A stretch of 64,000 nt of DNA, taken from Christiangramia salexigens (GTDB lineage: Bacteria; Bacteroidota; Bacteroidia; Flavobacteriales; Flavobacteriaceae). Position 1 is the first letter of the stretch. The number at the start of each line of letters is the position of its first letter. The DNA lies in assembly GCF_001889005.1 (NCBI RefSeq), contig NZ_CP018153.1, positions 2,896,001 to 2,960,000 of the forward strand, read 5' to 3'. Position numbers and translations under genes: made by a program. The notes beneath the pieces are model-generated. The model had not been told where the DNA came from, did not search any database, and worked only from the letters and a program-made list of their open reading frames with translations. This document shows positions 45,198-58,145 of this stretch, piece after piece.

Positions 45198-45968
45198 TTA
45201 GGTTAAAGCTTTAACATTTGCAACGAATTTATCTGTCTTTTCCAAGCCATGTTCGTTAATATGCTTAATAAAGGCACTTCCAATTATTGCTCCTTTGGCA
45301 TATTGTGTAGCCTGATTAAAAGTGTCTTTATCTTTGATCCCAAAACCAACGATCTGTGGATTATTGAGGTTAAGCTCGTGAATTCTTTTGAAGTAGTCTC
45401 TGGTTTCATCGCTAAATCCTGATGTAGATCCTGTAACACTCGCGCTGCTTACCATATATATGAAACCATCTGAAACCGAGTCTATAAATTTTATCCTTTC
45501 ATCTGAAGTTTGTGGGGTAATGAGAAAGACGTTGATAAGGCCATATTTCTCAAATAATGACTGATATTTTTCGTGATATACATCTACGGGAAGATCGGGA
45601 ATGATCAGTCCGTCAATACCGGCATTTTGGCACTTTTGGCAAAACTTTTCAACACCGTACTGAAGTATTGGATTAAAATAACCCATAATGATCAATGGAA
45701 TTTCTACCTCATTGCGGATTCCTTCAAGTTGTGCGAATAATTTTTGGGTTGTCATTCCATTTTTTAAAGCTTTAGTAGAGCTTTCCTGGATAGTTGGTCC
45801 ATCTGCTAAAGGATCGCTGAATGGGAGGCCAATTTCAATAAAATCAACGCCATTAGTTTCCAGATCTTTAATGATTCTGGTTGTATCATTTATTTCCGGG
45901 TAACCCGCAGTGAAATATATTGAAAGCAATTTTTTATCTGCCTGTAACTTCTTCTTGATTCGGTTCAT
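45198..45968 (-). CDS. trpA: Tryptophan synthase alpha chain
   Basis: A 256-aa TIM-barrel subunit. Seen: AGYPEINDTTRII, catalytic Glu in FIEIGLPFSDPLADGPTIQE near residue 45, PLIIMGYFNPILQYG, catalytic Asp in DGLIIPDLPVDVY, and SSASVTGSTSGF. It cleaves indole-3-glycerol phosphate to indole, which passes to TrpB. Last gene of the trp operon, 66 nt after trpB. Confidence 0.96.
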   Translation of the reverse strand: MNRIKKKLQADKKLLSIYFTAGYPEINDTTRIIKDLETNGVDFIEIGLPFSDPLADGPTIQESSTKALKNGMTTQKLFAQLEGIRNEVEIPLIIMGYFNPILQYGVEKFCQKCQNAGIDGLIIPDLPVDVYHEKYQSLFEKYGLINVFLITPQTSDERIKFIDSVSDGFIYMVSSASVTGSTSGFSDETRDYFKRIHELNLNNPQIVGFGIKDKDTFNQATQYAKGAIIGSAFIKHINEHGLEKTDKFVANVKALT

Positions 45969-46034
45969 TATAATGAATCTTTAAAATGCCTGCTGATGCT
46001 ATTGATTTCAAAAGAATTTAATCAGCAGATTATA

Positions 46035-47216
46035 TTACAAATTAAAATAGTCGATATAGGTATTAAGGTCTTTATCTCCGCGTCCTGAAAGGTTGATAAC
46101 TACAATATCATCTTCCTTGAATTTGCGGTCTTCAAAGATCGCTAAAGCGTGTGAGGTTTCTATTGCCGGAATGATTCCCTCTAACTTAGCAAGTTCCAGT
46201 CCTGCTTTCATAGCGGCCTCATCTGTGATACTGATGAATTCGCCTCGTCCACTTGTAAAGAGGTTTGCGTGCATTGGCCCTACACCCGGATAATCAAGAC
46301 CTGCAGAGATCGAATAAGGTTCTGTGATCTGGCCGTCACCGGTTTGCATCAATAAAGTTTTACTTCCGTGAATAATACCTGCATTTCCAAGTGCTGAGGT
46401 TGCTGCACTTTCTCCCGAATCAATTCCCTTTCCTGCAGCCTCTACAGCAATAATCCCAACTTTCGGGTTATCCAAATAGTGATAATAAGCTCCCGCAGCA
46501 TTGCTTCCGCCGCCCACGCAGGCTACGACATAATCTGGATCTTCTTTGCCTTCTTTTTCCTTTAACTGATATTTGATCTCTTCTGAGATTACACTTTGAA
46601 ATCTGGCAACCATATCGGGGTAAGGATGTGGCCCCACTACAGATCCAATAATATAATGCGTATCTACCGGATTATTGATCCAATCCCTTATAGCTTCATT
46701 GGTAGCGTCCTTTAGTGTTTTACTTCCCGATTTTGCGGGAACCACCTTTGCACCAAGCATTTTCATTCTCGCAACATTTGGAGCCTGTCTTTCTATATCT
46801 ATTTCTCCCATATATACGATACACTCCATGCCCATTAGTGCGCAAACCGTAGCGGTTGCAACACCATGCTGGCCGGCACCCGTTTCGGCAATGATCCTTT
46901 TCTTGCCCAACTTTTGAGCCATCAGGATCTGGCCAATGGTATTATTCACTTTATGTGCGCCTGTATGACAAAGATCTTCTCTTTTTAAGTAAACCTTAGT
47001 GCCGTATTTTTCACTAAATCGTTTAGCATAATATAAAGGAGTTGGCCTGCCAACATATTCTCTTAGCAGATCCTTGAACTCTTTTTGAAAAGACTCTTCC
47101 TGCATTATTTTTAAATAGCGGGAACGTAATTCTTCTACATTAGGATATAGCATTTCTGGGATGTAAGCACCTCCAAATTCACCATAATACCCTTTTTCAT
47201 CAACCTGATAGCTCAT
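46035..47216 (-). CDS. trpB: Tryptophan synthase beta chain
   Basis: A 393-aa PLP enzyme. Seen: [22 protein letters not shown] lysine in [35 protein letters not shown], and [16 protein letters not shown]. It condenses indole with serine. The stop of trpF precedes it by 1 nt, fitting tight coupling. Confidence 0.97.
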
Positions 47217-47217
47217 C

Positions 47218-47931
47218 TTAGGAATTTATCTGTGTTTTGAATTCTTTCAATTCTTTAATTTTCTTAAGTCCTGGTTTTAATTCGAACTTACTATTTACAT
47301 CAACTGCATAAAGCAGTCCCGGTTTGCCTATTTTTAAAAAGTGACTTTTAAGATTAGAAATGGCTCTTCCATGCTCCGGGCCAATTCCTCCGCTCAGGAA
47401 AAAAGGTGTGTTGGATGGATAATTTTTTAAAATATCCCAGTCAAATTCTTCGCCATTGCCTCCTCTTAGGACCCCTTTAGTGTCAAACAAAAAATAATCA
47501 ACTATGCCTTCATATGCCTTGATCTCCTGGAAATTGAAATCATCACCTACAGAAAAAACCTTTATAAGCTCAGGGGTATTTCCTAATTTTTGTAGGTCGG
47601 TTTTGAGATCCTTGCAGAATTCTGCCGTTTCATCCCCGTGAAGCTGAATAGCATTAAGAGAATAATTTTCAATTTTTTCCAGAATATTTTCTGCTGTTTC
47701 GTTTACAAAAACACCTGCTTTCTTGATTTTTGAAGAGATCTCAGGAAGATCATCTTTAAAATATCTCGGGGATTTTTCATAAAAAATGAATCCCATATAA
47801 TCGGGTTCGATCTCGGAGATCTGAATCATGTTACCGGGCTGTTGCATCCCGCAAACTTTAAGACTTAGACCAGAGCTTTTTCCTGAAGCAGGAGTGATCA
47901 TAGATTTTTCTTGCATGCTTTTCTGATTCAT
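47218..47931 (-). CDS. trpF: Phosphoribosylanthranilate isomerase
   Basis: A 237-aa TIM barrel. Catalytic Cys in [12 protein letters not shown] near residue 26, [13 protein letters not shown], and [12 protein letters not shown] near residue 178; [14 protein letters not shown] closes it. It isomerises PRA to CdRP. The N terminus is about 20 residues longer than usual; an internal ATG (residue 11) is an alternative. Its ATG directly follows the trpC stop. Confidence 0.93.
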
Positions 47932-48723
47932 TTATTTGTGCGATTTTAATTCGGAAATAAATTTTATGGCGGCGCTTGCGGGATCATTGGTCTTCATGAA
48001 ATTCTCACCAATTAGGAATCCTTTATATCCATACTCTCTGAGATCTGTTATGGCTTTAATATTGCTGATCCCACTTTCAGAAACTTTGATAAATTCTGAG
48101 GGAATTAGTGGCGAAAGATTCTTACTGTTCTGAATATCTACCTCAAAGGTTTTAAGATTACGGTTGTTAACGCCAATCATATCTGCTTTTACTCTTAAAG
48201 ACTTTTCTAATTCTTCTCTATTGTGAACTTCTAAGAGGACATCCAAGCCAAGATCTTTGGCAAATTTGGCAAAATATTCCAGTTGTTTCTTGGTGAGTAC
48301 GGCCGCAATAAGAAGTATCGCATCTGCCCCATAAGCTTTGGCTTCAAGGATCTGATATTCATCTATCATAAAATCCTTCCTTAAAATTGGAGTCTTAACA
48401 GAGGCCCTTGCATAAAGCAGGTCATCCAGCGAGCCTCCAAAGTATTTTCCATCGGTTAATACAGAAATTCCTGAGGCCTCGGCTTTGGCGTATCCGGTAA
48501 CTACATCCTGCACATTCTGGTCCTGATTAATTACAGATTTGGAAGGACTTCTTCTCTTATGTTCTGCTATGATTCCAGTTTCTGAATGCTTTATATTTTC
48601 AGCCAGTGAAATTATGCTTCTATTAAATAATGCTGATTTTTCCAATTGAGATTGAGGAACTATAGATTTCTTTAGTTCTACCTCCTTGAATTTATCAGCT
48701 ATGATCTTATCCAGTATATTCAT
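47932..48723 (-). CDS. trpC: Indole-3-glycerol phosphate synthase
   Basis: A 263-aa TIM barrel. Seen: IIAEHKRRSPSKS with catalytic Glu and Lys, ISVLTDGKYFGGSLDDL, ILRKDFMIDEYQI, VNNRNLKTFEVDI and KVSESGISNIKAI. It closes the pyrrole ring of the indole. It is separate from trpF here, not fused as in E. coli. Confidence 0.96.
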   Translation of the reverse strand: MNILDKIIADKFKEVELKKSIVPQSQLEKSALFNRSIISLAENIKHSETGIIAEHKRRSPSKSVINQDQNVQDVVTGYAKAEASGISVLTDGKYFGGSLDDLLYARASVKTPILRKDFMIDEYQILEAKAYGADAILLIAAVLTKKQLEYFAKFAKDLGLDVLLEVHNREELEKSLRVKADMIGVNNRNLKTFEVDIQNSKNLSPLIPSEFIKVSESGISNIKAITDLREYGYKGFLIGENFMKTNDPASAAIKFISELKSHK

Positions 48724-48729
48724 TTTATA

Positions 48730-49731
48730 CTAATTTGTTGCTTGGCTTAAATCGCGTAATTTTTTAAAACTTTCATAGGCTTTTCCTGACTGAAGGGACT
48801 CCTTTGCCTTTTCAAATCCTTCAATAGGACTAAGATCCAATGAGGTGGCGATCGCCATTCCTGCGTTGGCACAGACCACATTGCGTTGAGCCTCCGTTCC
48901 ATCTCCTTTTAAAATACCGGTAAGGATCTCTGCCGAACTTTCAATCGAGCCACCTCCTGCGATTTCTGCTGACTTCAATTGAGGAATTCCAAAATCTTCG
49001 GCCTTCAAAACTCTTTCAGAATTATTGCTAATGCTCTTTGTTTCACCGGTTAATGAGATTTCATCATATCCATCTAAAGCATGTAATATGGTATAGTTTT
49101 TATCGGTATTTTGATAAAGATAAGCATACATTCGGGCTAATTCAAGGCTGAACACACCAACCAGCTGATTTTTAGGGAAAGCCGGATTAACCATTGGCCC
49201 CAACATATTAAAGAATGTTTTTACTGCCAGACTCGTTCTTACTGGAGCTACATTTTTCATCGCCGGATGGAATAGGGGAGCATGTAAAATACAAATATTG
49301 GCTTCTTCGATACATTTTTTTAAAAAGCCTTCGTCATTGCTAAACTTAATTCCAAGATGCTCCATTACATTAGAACTACCGCTAATAGAAGATACTCCAT
49401 AATTTCCATGCTTTGCCACTTTTACACCGGCACCAGCAGTAACAAAAGAGGAAGTCGTAGAAATATTAAAGGTATCCTTACCATCACCTCCGGTTCCACA
49501 TAGGTCAACCGCATTATAATCTTTAAGGTCTACTTTGATACATAGTTCCAACAGAGCATCTCTGAAGCCTTCAAGCTCCTGTATCGTAATGCTTCTCATC
49601 ATGTAGACCGTTAAAAAAGCTGCGATCTGTGTATCATTATACTTCCCTTCAGAAATATTGAATATGACCTGTTTGGCCTCTTCTGTACTTATGGTTTCAT
49701 GACTAATAAGCCTATTGAGTAATTCTTTCAT
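48730..49731 (-). CDS. trpD: Anthranilate phosphoribosyltransferase
   Basis: A 333-aa enzyme. Seen: DLCGTGGDGKDTFNISTTSS, KHGNYGVSSISGSSNVMEHL, HPAMKNVAPVRTSLAVKTFF, and DGYDEISLTGETK. It adds the PRPP ribose to anthranilate. Separate from trpG, 20 nt upstream. Confidence 0.96.
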   Translation of the reverse strand: MKELLNRLISHETISTEEAKQVIFNISEGKYNDTQIAAFLTVYMMRSITIQELEGFRDALLELCIKVDLKDYNAVDLCGTGGDGKDTFNISTTSSFVTAGAGVKVAKHGNYGVSSISGSSNVMEHLGIKFSNDEGFLKKCIEEANICILHAPLFHPAMKNVAPVRTSLAVKTFFNMLGPMVNPAFPKNQLVGVFSLELARMYAYLYQNTDKNYTILHALDGYDEISLTGETKSISNNSERVLKAEDFGIPQLKSAEIAGGGSIESSAEILTGILKGDGTEAQRNVVCANAGMAIATSLDLSPIEGFEKAKESLQSGKAYESFKKLRDLSQATN

Positions 49732-49751
49732 CTTAAGTGCTCCTTCCTGTT

Positions 49752-50378
49752 TTAAATTTCAACTTTCGAATTTTCATTGGATGGGTCATTCGTCACTTCT
49801 TCAGAATATTCTACCCAATTTCTGATCATTTGTTTACCATCTGGCGTTAAAACCGACTCCGGATGAAATTGAACTCCGCGCACATCATAGGTATTATGCC
49901 TTACAGACATGACCTCTCCCTTTTCATCATAACTGGTTGCCTGTAAGCATTCTGGTAATCTTTTATTTACTACCCAGGAATGATAGCGACCTACCGGAAA
50001 TTCATTATCAAGACCTTTAAAAAGGTATTCATCGTCTACAAATAATTTGATGTTCGTGGCTACACCGTGGTAAACCTCATCCAGATTGTCCAGGGTTCCA
50101 CCGAAAACTTCGCCAATAGCCTGCATTCCAAGACAAACACCTAGAATTCTTTTTGAATCGGCATATTTTTGAATAATAGGTTTTAATAGTCCCGCTTCAT
50201 CCGGTATACCCGGCCCTGGGGATAATAAAATGCAATCATAAGCATCAACCTCCTCAAGGCTTAACTGGTCGTTTCTTTTAACCACAACTTCACAATCAAG
50301 TTCCTCGAGATAGTGAACAAGGTTGTAAACAAAGGAATCATAATTATCTATTACCAGTATTTTTTTCATTTCTCTCAT
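49752..50378 (-). CDS. trpG: Anthranilate synthase component II
   Basis: A 208-aa class I glutamine amidotransferase. Seen: DNYDSFVYNLVHYLEELDCE, SPGPGIPDEAG, the nucleophile Cys in ILGVCLGMQAIGEVFGG, and the His-Glu pair in RGVQFHPESVLT. It supplies ammonia to TrpE. The family also covers PabA; sharing with PABA synthesis is possible. An internal ATG at 50369 is an alternative start. Confidence 0.95.
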   Translation of the reverse strand: MREMKKILVIDNYDSFVYNLVHYLEELDCEVVVKRNDQLSLEEVDAYDCILLSPGPGIPDEAGLLKPIIQKYADSKRILGVCLGMQAIGEVFGGTLDNLDEVYHGVATNIKLFVDDEYLFKGLDNEFPVGRYHSWVVNKRLPECLQATSYDEKGEVMSVRHNTYDVRGVQFHPESVLTPDGKQMIRNWVEYSEEVTNDPSNENSKVEI

Positions 50379-50384
50379 TATGAT

Positions 50385-51779
50385 TTAGATTTCTTCCGCA
50401 ATTTCAAGGGCCTTAGTCAAAGCTCCGAGTTTATTGTAGACTTCCTGTAATTCGTTTTCTGGTTTTGACTCTGAAACTATTCCTGCACCGGCCTGATAAT
50501 GAAGTTCATGATTTTTACTTACAAAAGACCGAATGATTATCGCGTGGTTAAAGTTGCCTTCAAAATCCATAAATCCTATGGCGCCTCCATATGCACTTCT
50601 GTTAACATTCTCAAATTTTTCAATAAGTCGAAGAGCCATGGGTTTTGGAGCGCCGCTTAAGGTTCCTGCTGGGAAAGTGTCGGCCACAATTTGAGGAGTA
50701 GAAATATTTGCATCCTTTTTACCTGTGACCTTGCTCACTAAATGGATCACATGACTAAAGAACTGAATCTCCCGATAGTTCTCAACTTTTACATCGCTAC
50801 CGTGTCTGCTAAGATCATTTCTGGCCAGATCTACCAGCATAACGTGCTCGGCATTCTCTTTTTCATCTGCAGCAAGTTCTTTAGCGATCTCCGCATCCTT
50901 TTCATCGTTGCCGGTTCTTTTGAAGGTTCCGGCAATCGGGTGTATCTCTGCCCGGCCTTTATTCACAACCAATTGAGCTTCGGGAGAACTTCCAAAGATC
51001 TTGAAATTGCCATAATCAAAATAAAACAGGTAAGGGGATGGGTTTACATTGCGAAGGGCCCTGTATACATTAAATTCATCACCTTTGAATTTCTGAGAAA
51101 ATCTTCTTGAGAGCACGAGTTGAAAAACGTCACCCCTGTGACAGTGTTCCTTTGCCGCATCTACTACCGCTCTATAATCTTCATCGCTGAGATTTGACTC
51201 AGGAGCTTTATCTCTGGAAAAATTATATGTCGCGAAATTCTTGACTTTCAATAATTGTTCGATCTCCTCGATCCTGCTTTCTGAATTATAGCTATGGTCA
51301 AATATATATGCCTCATTCTTAAAGTGATTTATGGCGATTATATTCTGATAGACCGCGTAATAAATATCCGGGATCTGGAGATCTTTTTCTTTTCGTTTAA
51401 TGTCTACATTCTCGAAATATCTTACGGAGTCGTAAGCTATATAACCGAAAAGTCCATTATTGATGAATTTAAATTCGGCAGAATTTGCTTTAAACTTATT
51501 TGAAAAGTCTTGAATCGCTTTTGGGATGGAGATAGATGTATCTATATCTGTATTGGAGATGCTGCCGTCTGGAAAATGTTCTGTAATAACTTCATTTTGA
51601 ACTTTAAATGAAGCTATTGGATTACAGCATATATAGGAAAAGCTGTTATCGCTGGCGTGATAGTCGCTACTCTCCAATAATAAACTATTGGGGTATTTAT
51701 CTCTGAGCTTTAGGTAAATGCTTACAGGTGTTATAGTATCTGCAAGAATCTTCTTGTATTTGGTATTTAATTTGAACAT
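50385..51779 (-). CDS. trpE: Anthranilate synthase component I
   Basis: A 464-aa chorismate-binding enzyme. Seen: NSLLLESSDYHASDNSFSYI (the Trp feedback-site region, with LLESS), SPEAQLVVNKGRAEIHPIAG, DLARNDLSRHG, FPAGTLSGAPKPMALRLIE and AGAGIVSESKPENEL. It makes anthranilate from chorismate with TrpG. The frame is open to 51824, but that stretch is the attenuator hairpin; the ATG at 51779 is the likely start. First structural gene after the leader, 22 nt past the terminator. Confidence 0.96.
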   Translation of the reverse strand: MFKLNTKYKKILADTITPVSIYLKLRDKYPNSLLLESSDYHASDNSFSYICCNPIASFKVQNEVITEHFPDGSISNTDIDTSISIPKAIQDFSNKFKANSAEFKFINNGLFGYIAYDSVRYFENVDIKRKEKDLQIPDIYYAVYQNIIAINHFKNEAYIFDHSYNSESRIEEIEQLLKVKNFATYNFSRDKAPESNLSDEDYRAVVDAAKEHCHRGDVFQLVLSRRFSQKFKGDEFNVYRALRNVNPSPYLFYFDYGNFKIFGSSPEAQLVVNKGRAEIHPIAGTFKRTGNDEKDAEIAKELAADEKENAEHVMLVDLARNDLSRHGSDVKVENYREIQFFSHVIHLVSKVTGKKDANISTPQIVADTFPAGTLSGAPKPMALRLIEKFENVNRSAYGGAIGFMDFEGNFNHAIIIRSFVSKNHELHYQAGAGIVSESKPENELQEVYNKLGALTKALEIAEEI

Positions 51780-51800: not shown

Positions 51801-51865
51801 AAAAAAAGGCTTGTCGTGAGACAAGCCTTATAGTTTATATAATTGAATGGCAGGTTAGCTCACGA
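51801..51865 (-). promoter_or_regulatory. trp operon attenuator: terminator and antiterminator segments
   Basis: The minus strand holds AAGGCTTGTC-TCAC-GACAAGCCTT (51829-51806), then a run of T. This intrinsic terminator lies 22 nt before trpE. TCGTGAG at 51865-51859, covering the leader stop codon, is complementary to CTCACGA at 51820-51814, which spans the terminator loop and part of both arms. CCT (51854-51852) can add pairs with AGG (51828-51826). The two structures exclude each other. Stalling at the Trp codons would leave TCGTGAG free; a ribosome at the stop codon would cover it. Confidence 0.85.
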
Positions 51866-51916
51866 ATTTCGACGTAAGTTATTCCACCACCAGTTATTTA
51901 ATTTCATTGAAAACAT
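51860..51916 (-). CDS. trpL: trp operon leader peptide
   Basis: An 18-codon frame MFSMKLNNWWWNNLRRNS with three consecutive Trp codons (51892-51884). Three TGG in a row in a short frame just before a terminator and trpE is the classic mark of Trp attenuation. There are two possible ATG starts (51916 and 51907), in frame. The last Trp codon is 18 nt upstream of the antiterminator strand. Confidence 0.88.
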   Translation of the reverse strand: MFSMKLNNWWWNNLRRNS

Positions 51917-51921
51917 GGTCT

Positions 51922-51952
51922 CAAAGATAGAAACGAAATTATTCTAAACAAA
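51922..51952 (-). promoter_or_regulatory. Promoter of the trp operon
   Basis: The minus strand shows TTTG (51952-51949), 19 nt, then TATCTTTG (51929-51922), an ideal Bacteroidota -33/-7 pair. Only 5 nt separate the -7 box from the first leader ATG, so the transcript should begin at or next to it. Confidence 0.75.
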
Positions 51953-51960
51953 GGTTTTTA

Positions 51961-51995
51961 AAAGAAAAATCCTGAAGTAAATTCACTTCAGGATT
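51961..51995 (-). terminator. Terminator of the marR-nitroreductase-yceI operon
   Basis: Stem AATCCTGAAGT / ACTTCAGGATT with a 6-nt loop and TTTTTCTTT on the minus strand, just upstream of the trp promoter. Confidence 0.85.
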
Positions 51996-52000
51996 AATCC

Positions 52001-52570
52001 TTAAAACTTAAGATTAACGTCAAGTTCAAAGTTGTCATAAATGGTTTTGTCTCCCAGATTGTCAAAGAAACTTCCTGAACCATATCTAACATCATATTTA
52101 GATCTGTCAATTGTCAAGTGAGTTGAAGCTGAATCTCCAACCATCTTAAGATCGAAAGTTATTGGATGAGTTTTCTCTTTAATAGTAAGGTCGGCAACTA
52201 TACCGTAAGAGCCGGTTCCTTTCTTAGCAGCACTGGTTATTACCAATTTTGCATTCGGATATTTTTCAACCCCGAAAAAATCTTCAGATTTCAAGTGTCC
52301 TTCAAGTTTACCTTTGCTCTCGCCTGTTAAGTCTGTTACGGTTATTGTACTCATATCCATTACAAATTCACCACCGACGATCTTTTCATCCTCCATCATA
52401 AGGTGACCGCTTTTCAGCTTAATTGTTCCATTATGTGAACCGGTAACTTTTTCCCCTGTCCAGGTAATAGTACTTGCATCAACATTCACTTCTTGTTTGG
52501 TGTTTGTAAAAGCGACAGTAATTAAAAGCACTAATACCGCGATTCCTCCTTTAAATAATTGATTTTTCAT
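52001..52570 (-). CDS. YceI family protein
   Basis: A 189-aa protein with a signal peptide or anchor (about 1-22) and the YceI lipocalin-like barrel. Seen: STITWTGEKVTGSHNGTIKL, GGEFVMDMSTITVTDL, LKSEDFFGVEKYPNAKLVIT and KEKTHPITFDLKM. YceI proteins bind isoprenoid-type lipids and are often induced by stress. Last gene after marR and nitroreductase. Confidence 0.93.
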   Translation of the reverse strand: MKNQLFKGGIAVLVLLITVAFTNTKQEVNVDASTITWTGEKVTGSHNGTIKLKSGHLMMEDEKIVGGEFVMDMSTITVTDLTGESKGKLEGHLKSEDFFGVEKYPNAKLVITSAAKKGTGSYGIVADLTIKEKTHPITFDLKMVGDSASTHLTIDRSKYDVRYGSGSFFDNLGDKTIYDNFELDVNLKF

Positions 52571-57669: not shown

Positions 57670-57701
57670 CCTTTTTTGATCTGCAGCATAACTGCATTTA
57701 A

Positions 57702-58100
57702 TGGTGGAGTCGGAGGGGTTCGAACCCTCGTCCAAACAAGCAATTCAGAAGCTTTCTACACGTTTAGTCTTCGTTTAATTGTCGATGCAAAGCCGGCCGA
57801 AAACCACCAACTTTACACGTATCCTCACTTAGATTTCGCAACCGCATCAAGGCCCTGCGGGTACTATATTTACTTTATCGGTGCCTCTAATGTGGACGCC
57901 GTAAATCAAGGCTTCCACGAGACATCTTGGCTCCCTGCCTTGCAGGGACTAAGTATAACCTACTATGATTCGGTTACGCAGCCAAGGCGTAGTTATTCTC
58001 GCCGTTTAAAAAGTCTGAAATATGATATTTACGAGCTATATCCCAGCGCTCGACGTGCTTACAACTCAATTAGACTCGCTGTCAAAACCAAGTCGACCCC
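57702..58100 (-). ncRNA. ssrA: tmRNA
   Basis: 399 nt. The 5' end GGGGTCG pairs with CGACTCC of the 3' end to form the acceptor stem. The 3' end holds the T-arm GGTTCGAACCC and terminal ACCA, encoded. The tag frame at 58003-57977 reads GENNYALAA, then TAA. The tag ends in ALAA, the degradation signal. Upstream -7 box at 58146-58153; the ~40-nt leader would be removed by RNase P. Confidence 0.95.
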
Positions 58101-58145
58101 AAAATTTCAATGAACACTTAAAACTTTTTTAGCCTTAAGCGATTT

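Follow-up and report, generated by a model that had tools for sequence, protein, structure and literature searches.

The trpEGDCFBA operon in the window (the whole stretch of DNA analysed, 64,000 nt) is very probably controlled by a ribosome-mediated transcription attenuator of the Rfam family RF01692, judging by sequence comparison. The leader belongs to a family already catalogued, and its mechanism is the textbook one; it is known to that extent, and it adds no new kind of regulation. What is added here is comparative support for an antiterminator formed by segments 2 and 3 (2:3), the 1:2 partner that competes with it, a spacing rule and a predicted leaderless start. In a fuller reading, in which we have about even confidence, this is a leaderless four-segment Trp attenuator whose antiterminator seizes the terminator loop and arm tips (mostly the loop and 3' arm, not the 5' arm) and might thereby block hairpin nucleation in a short time window. 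Its layout, which puts segment 2 about 15-22 nt downstream of the Trp codons, would then be kept in most loci examined in several Bacteroidota families, segments 2 and 3 being replaced together and the leader moving between trpE, trpB and trpD.

Organization of the leader and the trp operon

All leader features lie on the minus strand, and coordinates are positions in the window (Table 1). An initial annotation had described a -33/-7 promoter, an 18-codon leader peptide with three consecutive Trp codons ending 18 nt upstream of TCGTGAG, and complementarity between this segment, over the leader stop codon, and CTCACGA in the terminator loop and arms. All of these are present as described, including the promoter (TTTG, 19 nt and TATCTTTG) at the place given for it. 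The 10-bp terminator hairpin is likewise found before trpE, at 26 nt from the trpE ATG rather than the 22 nt claimed.

Table 1. Features of the trp leader and operon, as positions in the window.
Feature	Position	Strand	Remarks
-33 element TTTG	51952-51949	-	19 nt spacer to -7 box
-7 element TATCTTTG (TAnnTTTG consensus)	51929-51922	-	5 nt upstream of leader ATG
Rfam RF01692 Bacteroid-trp match	51820..51936	-	57.1 bits, cut-off 49
Leader peptide ORF MFSMKLNNWWWNNLRRNS	51860..51916	-	18 codons + stop; ATG 51916, stop 51862-51860
Three Trp codons TGGTGGTGG, putative stall site	51884..51892	-	kept in family leaders
Segment 1 tip CTTACG	51873..51878	-	pairs with segment 2 CGTGAG (anti-antiterminator)
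Segment 2 TCGTGAG	51859..51865	-	overlaps leader stop codon
Segment 3 CTCACGA	51814..51820	-	last base of 5' arm, loop, first two bases of 3' arm
Intrinsic terminator	51801..51829	-	10-bp stem AAGGCTTGTC[TCAC]GACAAGCCTT 51829-51806, then TTTTTATT; T-tract 51801-51805
trpE	50385..51779	-	start ATG 51779
trpG, trpD, trpC, trpF, trpB, trpA	45198..50378	-	remainder of operon

TrpE contains the Pfam domains Anth_synt_I_N and Chorismate_bind, both above cut-off, and its best NCBIfam model is trpE_most, below the curated cut-off of that model. NCBIfam matches above cut-off were obtained for TrpG (a subfamily model), TrpD, TrpC, TrpB and TrpA; the best matches of TrpF are phosphoribosylanthranilate isomerase models, below their cut-offs. 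Based on these matches the locus appears to be a complete trpEGDCFBA operon. Among named trpE genes those of Christiangramia/Gramella come nearest (87-90% identity), which most likely places the window in this group of Flavobacteriaceae. The alignments of relatives begin at residue 1 or 2 of the product from ATG 51779 in most of the matches listed. A mechanically compiled ORF list had placed a TTG start at 51824, inside the terminator; it was rejected, as relatives favour ATG 51779. A start called within the terminator means that automatic annotation could hide the leader. The second ATG of the leader ORF (51907) was also rejected as its start, since two close relatives (L176 and L177) lack it and keep the first. 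Upstream, a YceI-domain gene (52001-52570) is followed by a hairpin with a T-rich tail, recognized by eye at 51968-51995, just before the trp promoter.

The covariance model of RF01692, named 'Bacteroidete tryptophan peptide leader RNA' in Rfam, scored 57.1 against a gathering cut-off of 49 bits (E 2.8e-4 for the window), and this match, at 51936-51820, is the only one above cut-off in the genome. It adjoins trpE, followed by G, D, C, F, B and A, and it contains a short ORF with consecutive Trp codons, which we take to be the defining trait of the family, also from its Rfam name. Alignment to the full model gives a long hairpin through the Trp codons, with 8 positions flagged as non-standard pairs, and the minimum-energy fold of the leader also recovers a hairpin through these codons. 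RF01692 scores above cut-off in 184 of 299 genomes of the same bacterial family (208 at E<=0.001). Matches at E<=0.01 occurred in 22 of 295 genomes of a class sample (11 above cut-off, four of these in other families), and a phylum sample gave 18 of 198, all of them this genome or members of its family. A control genome, Bacteroides ihuae, also scored above cut-off.

Conservation of the leader and its pairings

A comparison set was chosen without reference to Rfam. A search of 100 family genomes for trpE gave a match in 91; two were excluded because the start was missing or the gene was a fragment (G066, G079), and 89 upstream regions were read. Of the 89, 85 contain an ORF with two or more Trp codons, compared with 100 of 1780 letter-shuffled regions (5.6%); 73 of these leaders have three consecutive Trp codons and 12 have two. 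Amongst the four regions that gave no leader, two have an RF01692 match beyond the upstream limit (G088, G044), one is cut by the end of its contig (G082), and one is without an RF01692 match (G035). A stable hairpin followed by T's is present in 83 of the 85 leaders. Of the checks proposed with the initial annotation, the search for conserved Trp codons in relatives finds them near universal. Two leaders were dropped from the pairing tests, one in which no terminator was found (G086) and one with a hairpin of positive energy only (G016), leaving 83. Spacing and footprint counts refer to 73 of these, the 10 without TCGTGA, TTGTGA, TCGCGA or TCGCAA being excluded, and the MAFFT alignment used here (A1) holds 43 of 80 distinct leaders.

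The promoter is also conserved: 79 of 85 leaders have TAnnTTTG no more than 26 nt from their ATG, against 2.8% of shuffles. Its distance from the ATG varies: in the 83 leaders with a box it is 4-6 nt in 20, 7-12 nt in 26, 14-22 nt in 33 and more in 4. In a named set of the 80 loci with the closest trpE, of which 10 gave no leader and 2 no box, the distance is exactly 5 nt in 33 of the remaining 68. All ten Christiangramia/Gramella leaders with promoter sequence have the 5-nt spacing; in Olleya, Gelidibacter, Lacinutrix and Xanthomarina the box lies 14-18 nt from the ATG instead. In a transcriptome report on Flavobacterium psychrophilum, the -7 box is placed at -12 to -5, and 5.5% of 890 mRNAs examined are given as leaderless (PMC9723704). 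With that placement, the 5-nt spacing of the window leader predicts a start at about 51917 and a 5' UTR of about 1 nt. From this distance the leader mRNA is predicted to be leaderless, starting within ~1 nt of the AUG.

For the 2:3 pairing, the sequence downstream of the Trp codons was compared with the terminator loop plus arm tips, and the best run of complementarity was scored, G-U pairs being allowed. At least 6 contiguous pairs were found in 77 of 83 leaders, and fewer than 6 in the other 6. Across these 83, TCGTGA is read as TCG-TGA with the stop codon in 30, falls within the ORF in the remaining two frames in 18 and 1, begins in or after the stop codon in 19, and is absent as an exact word from 15. 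Retention of this motif while the reading frame changes points to selection on the RNA, not on the peptide. The mean score of each genome's own segments was 16.57, against 15.38 (sd 0.15) with terminators re-dealt among genomes (0 of 10,000) and 9.97 for letter-shuffled segments; here and in the other permutations, relatedness inflates the result. For 16 genomes with unusual loops, the means were 15.1 (own) and 12.7 (re-dealt; 3 of 10,000). The own segment 2 was the best of all genomes' for only three of these 16 (G043, G064 and G042), two of which show replaced pairs, GGATTCAG:CTGAATCC in G042 and TGTCGCAAT:ATTGCGACA in G043. In G052, G047, G095 and G060, most foreign segments 2 pair as well as or better than their own.

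Strong column-wise covariation of 2:3 within the family had been expected, and it came out weak. In the 43 rows of A1, 92.5% of cells were paired compared with 91.0% in shuffles (5 of 500 as high), the covariation score was equalled by 129 of 500 shuffles, and both-side changes occurred in 4 cells (3 of 500 as high). When the partner was slid by 1 to 3 columns, pairing fell to 54% or less. The TCGTGAG motif is near-constant in A1, where leaders with replaced segments do not line up in register.

From the class sample, 13 loci outside the family were read, of which 11 were used. The other two (L172, L173) gave no leader ORF where read, and the position guess in these short loci may be wrong. 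The 11 have the same attenuator layout in other letters. GAACAGC:GCTGTTC is found before trpE in L165, L170 and L171, and GGCAACCT or GGCAGCCT with GGGTTGCC before trpD in L166, L167 and L169. Segments resembling TCGTAAG or TCGTGAG occur in three of four trpB loci (L161, L163, L164), with L162 pairing otherwise; L168, before trpD, has only 5 pairs of 2:3. The RF01692 score is above cut-off for L161-L164 and below it for L165-L171, and the downstream trp genes support these loci. In eight of them (L161-L164, L166-L169) the layout precedes trpB or trpD, not trpE.

Own pairs exceeded re-dealt ones in all 94 loci taken together (83 plus 11; 0 of 20,000) and with one locus per distinct terminator core (45 loci; 0 of 20,000); the 11 other-family loci alone gave 1 of 20,000, a set made up of a few related groups, so that such numbers are not probabilities. 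The TCGTGAG:CTCACGA antiterminator is therefore supported comparatively, by these permutations and by the 77 leaders with at least 6 pairs. The covariation of the two segments that was to be looked for in relatives is weak by column inside the family and strong across families.

The hairpin of the Rfam model spans the Trp codons; its tip can pair CTTACG with CGTGAG, and there is a longer stem in addition. This competing 1:2 hairpin, omitted from the initial annotation, makes the leader a standard four-segment attenuator. For both the tip and the stem-base duplexes, own pairs beat all of 5,000 permutations. In A1 columns 61.5% of the tip cells were paired, against 54.6% in shuffles, with a covariation score above 500 of 500 shuffles. 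Sliding the tip by -3 columns gave a similar score, so that the exact register may shift between genera.

The inner stem of the terminator shows both-side changes in 7 of 8 pairs (20 cells, 0 of 500 shuffles), with 99.7% of cells paired. Both arms are exactly GGCTTGTC/GACAAGCC in 56 of 83 leaders, a constancy that seems to exceed the need of a plain terminator. It could be explained if the terminated leader (~115 nt) also acted in trans as a small RNA, besides attenuation, by analogy with the Sinorhizobium rnTrpL RNA (PMC7298713). The exact hairpin has one copy in the genome, which would suit such an RNA; in part, however, the arms vary in step, as those of a plain terminator would, and we regard a role in trans as unlikely. 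That single copy also led us to reject a terminator cassette repeated in the genome. A looser hairpin pattern is present in 10 of 20 genomes including this one; these are 10 of the 12 from the genus, and none of the 8 from elsewhere in the order has it. Nine of the ten carry it once, and G754 has a second copy that is unlike the first.

Ribosome position, folding and the proposed mechanism

Segment 2 follows the Trp codons at a distance of 18-19 nt in 64 of 73 leaders, and the stop codon varies from 3 to 30 nt after the Trp codons. On the assumption that the ribosome covers 12 nt past the first base of the A site, segment 2 stays clear of a ribosome stalled on the last Trp codon in all 73 leaders. 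A ribosome on the stop codon covers segment 2 under the same assumption in 69 of 73, the stops of the other 4 being too early for full cover.

Folds with the ribosome masked were computed for RNA of increasing length. With the RNA ending just past segment 3, the leader without a ribosome forms 1:2 and the first four pairs of the terminator, each of the three Trp stalls gives seven 2:3 pairs, and a ribosome on the stop codon leaves neither 1:2 nor 2:3. Once half of the right arm is made, stalls at the second and third Trp codons keep 2:3, and a stall at the first reverts to 1:2 plus terminator. Once complete, the terminator belongs to the minimum-energy fold wherever the ribosome is placed and also without one; the isolated 2:3 duplex has -9.0 kcal/mol. 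Since the finished terminator wins at equilibrium in all states, control by 2:3 would have to be kinetic, that is, a race. A model of E. coli attenuation likewise has the ribosome and the polymerase racing each other (PMC1183508). As far as comparison and folding go, antiterminator and terminator are mutually exclusive, bases 51814-51820 being common to both.

We infer stalling, kinetics, a leaderless start and a response to Trp of the following kind. Transcription would begin no more than ~1 nt from the leader AUG. In the absence of a ribosome the RNA would fold into 1:2, UCGUGAG would be held, and the terminator would form. When charged tRNA-Trp is short, a ribosome would stall at UGG-UGG-UGG and open the 5' side of the 1:2 hairpin, freeing UCGUGAG, 18 nt downstream, to pair with CUCACGA once the terminator loop is made. 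This pairing would block nucleation of the hairpin, and the polymerase would continue into trpE. When Trp is plentiful, the ribosome would reach UGA and hide UCGUGAG, so that the terminator forms. The reading as a ribosome-stall attenuator, already offered in the initial annotation, holds on comparative grounds, given the Trp leader ORF in 85 of 89 regions, the 2:3 pairing and the spacing. The parts of the leader, their conservation, spacing and complementarity are what sequence comparison establishes.

The leader could instead act mainly through translational coupling, with reinitiation on trpE and the hairpins secondary. Leader genes near structural genes may raise translation, with a peak at 11-14 bp reported for Bacteroidetes (PMC4833913). 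The leader stop is far from that peak, 83 nt before the trpE match, and a stable hairpin with T-tract lies in between in 83 of 85 leaders; on the distance, reinitiation was dropped as the main role, and we consider it very unlikely. An alternative in which a different RNA or a protein (T-box, TRAP, repressor) senses Trp and the Trp-rich ORF plays no part is extremely improbable, as the ORF is present in 85 of 89 relatives and, in the search for regulators made with Rfam, only RF01692 and a distant tmRNA score above cut-off in the window; additional regulators may exist. On these scores an E. coli-type leader or another Rfam regulator was dropped, the E. coli-type Trp_leader (RF00513) reaching 17 bits against a cut-off of 41. 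The tmRNA (RF00023, 137.9 bits) lies at 57702-58100 on the minus strand; the ORF that overlaps it on the plus strand (57676-58113) is probably no real gene.

Comparison with known systems

With the attenuator reading, RF01692 gains a testable switching scheme that specifies its antiterminator, its anti-antiterminator and a rule for the spacing. If the start at the AUG is true, the leader would also offer a simple system in which to study the coupling of leaderless translation to transcription, in bacteria that are said to lack Shine-Dalgarno sequences (PMC9723704).

The window leader resembles Bacteroid-trp (RF01692) in scoring above the curated threshold, in its Trp leader ORF with a hairpin through it, and in lying upstream of trp genes. 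It differs in that the Rfam model stops in the left arm of the terminator, which is left unpaired, and therefore both the terminator and the 2:3 pairing are absent from the model. Bacteroid-trp RNA was published in 2010 by Weinberg et al. (PMC2864571), and a 2019 paper reports it as conserved ahead of the F. psychrophilum trp operon (PMC6414381). The 2021 transcriptome of that species is reported to hold strong indications that leader peptides mediate attenuation ahead of amino-acid operons (PMC9723704). The structured 5' leaders of F. psychrophilum, compared here by description, are alike in coming from the same bacterial family, in the attenuation inferred for them and in the Bacteroid-trp element before trp; as far as these descriptions go, no antiterminator is named (PMC9723704, PMC6414381). 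More generally, the antiterminator of Bacteroid-trp is not named in the main-text passages found.

In E. coli, the trp leader combines Trp codons with 1:2, 2:3 and 3:4 pairings. Compared with this layout, the window leader has a 2:3 pairing that takes the terminator loop and arm tips, and almost no 5' UTR. The earlier description of the design as more compact than that of E. coli seems to come down mainly to this near-absent 5' UTR. The two leaders share the Trp codons and the logic of 1:2, 2:3 and 3:4, for which the general scheme is described in PMC1183508. The trpL/rnTrpL RNA of Sinorhizobium meliloti belongs to an unrelated lineage, is compared by description, not sequence, and is reported to have trans roles; like the window leader as predicted here, this Trp attenuator RNA begins at the ATG of its leader ORF (PMC7298713).
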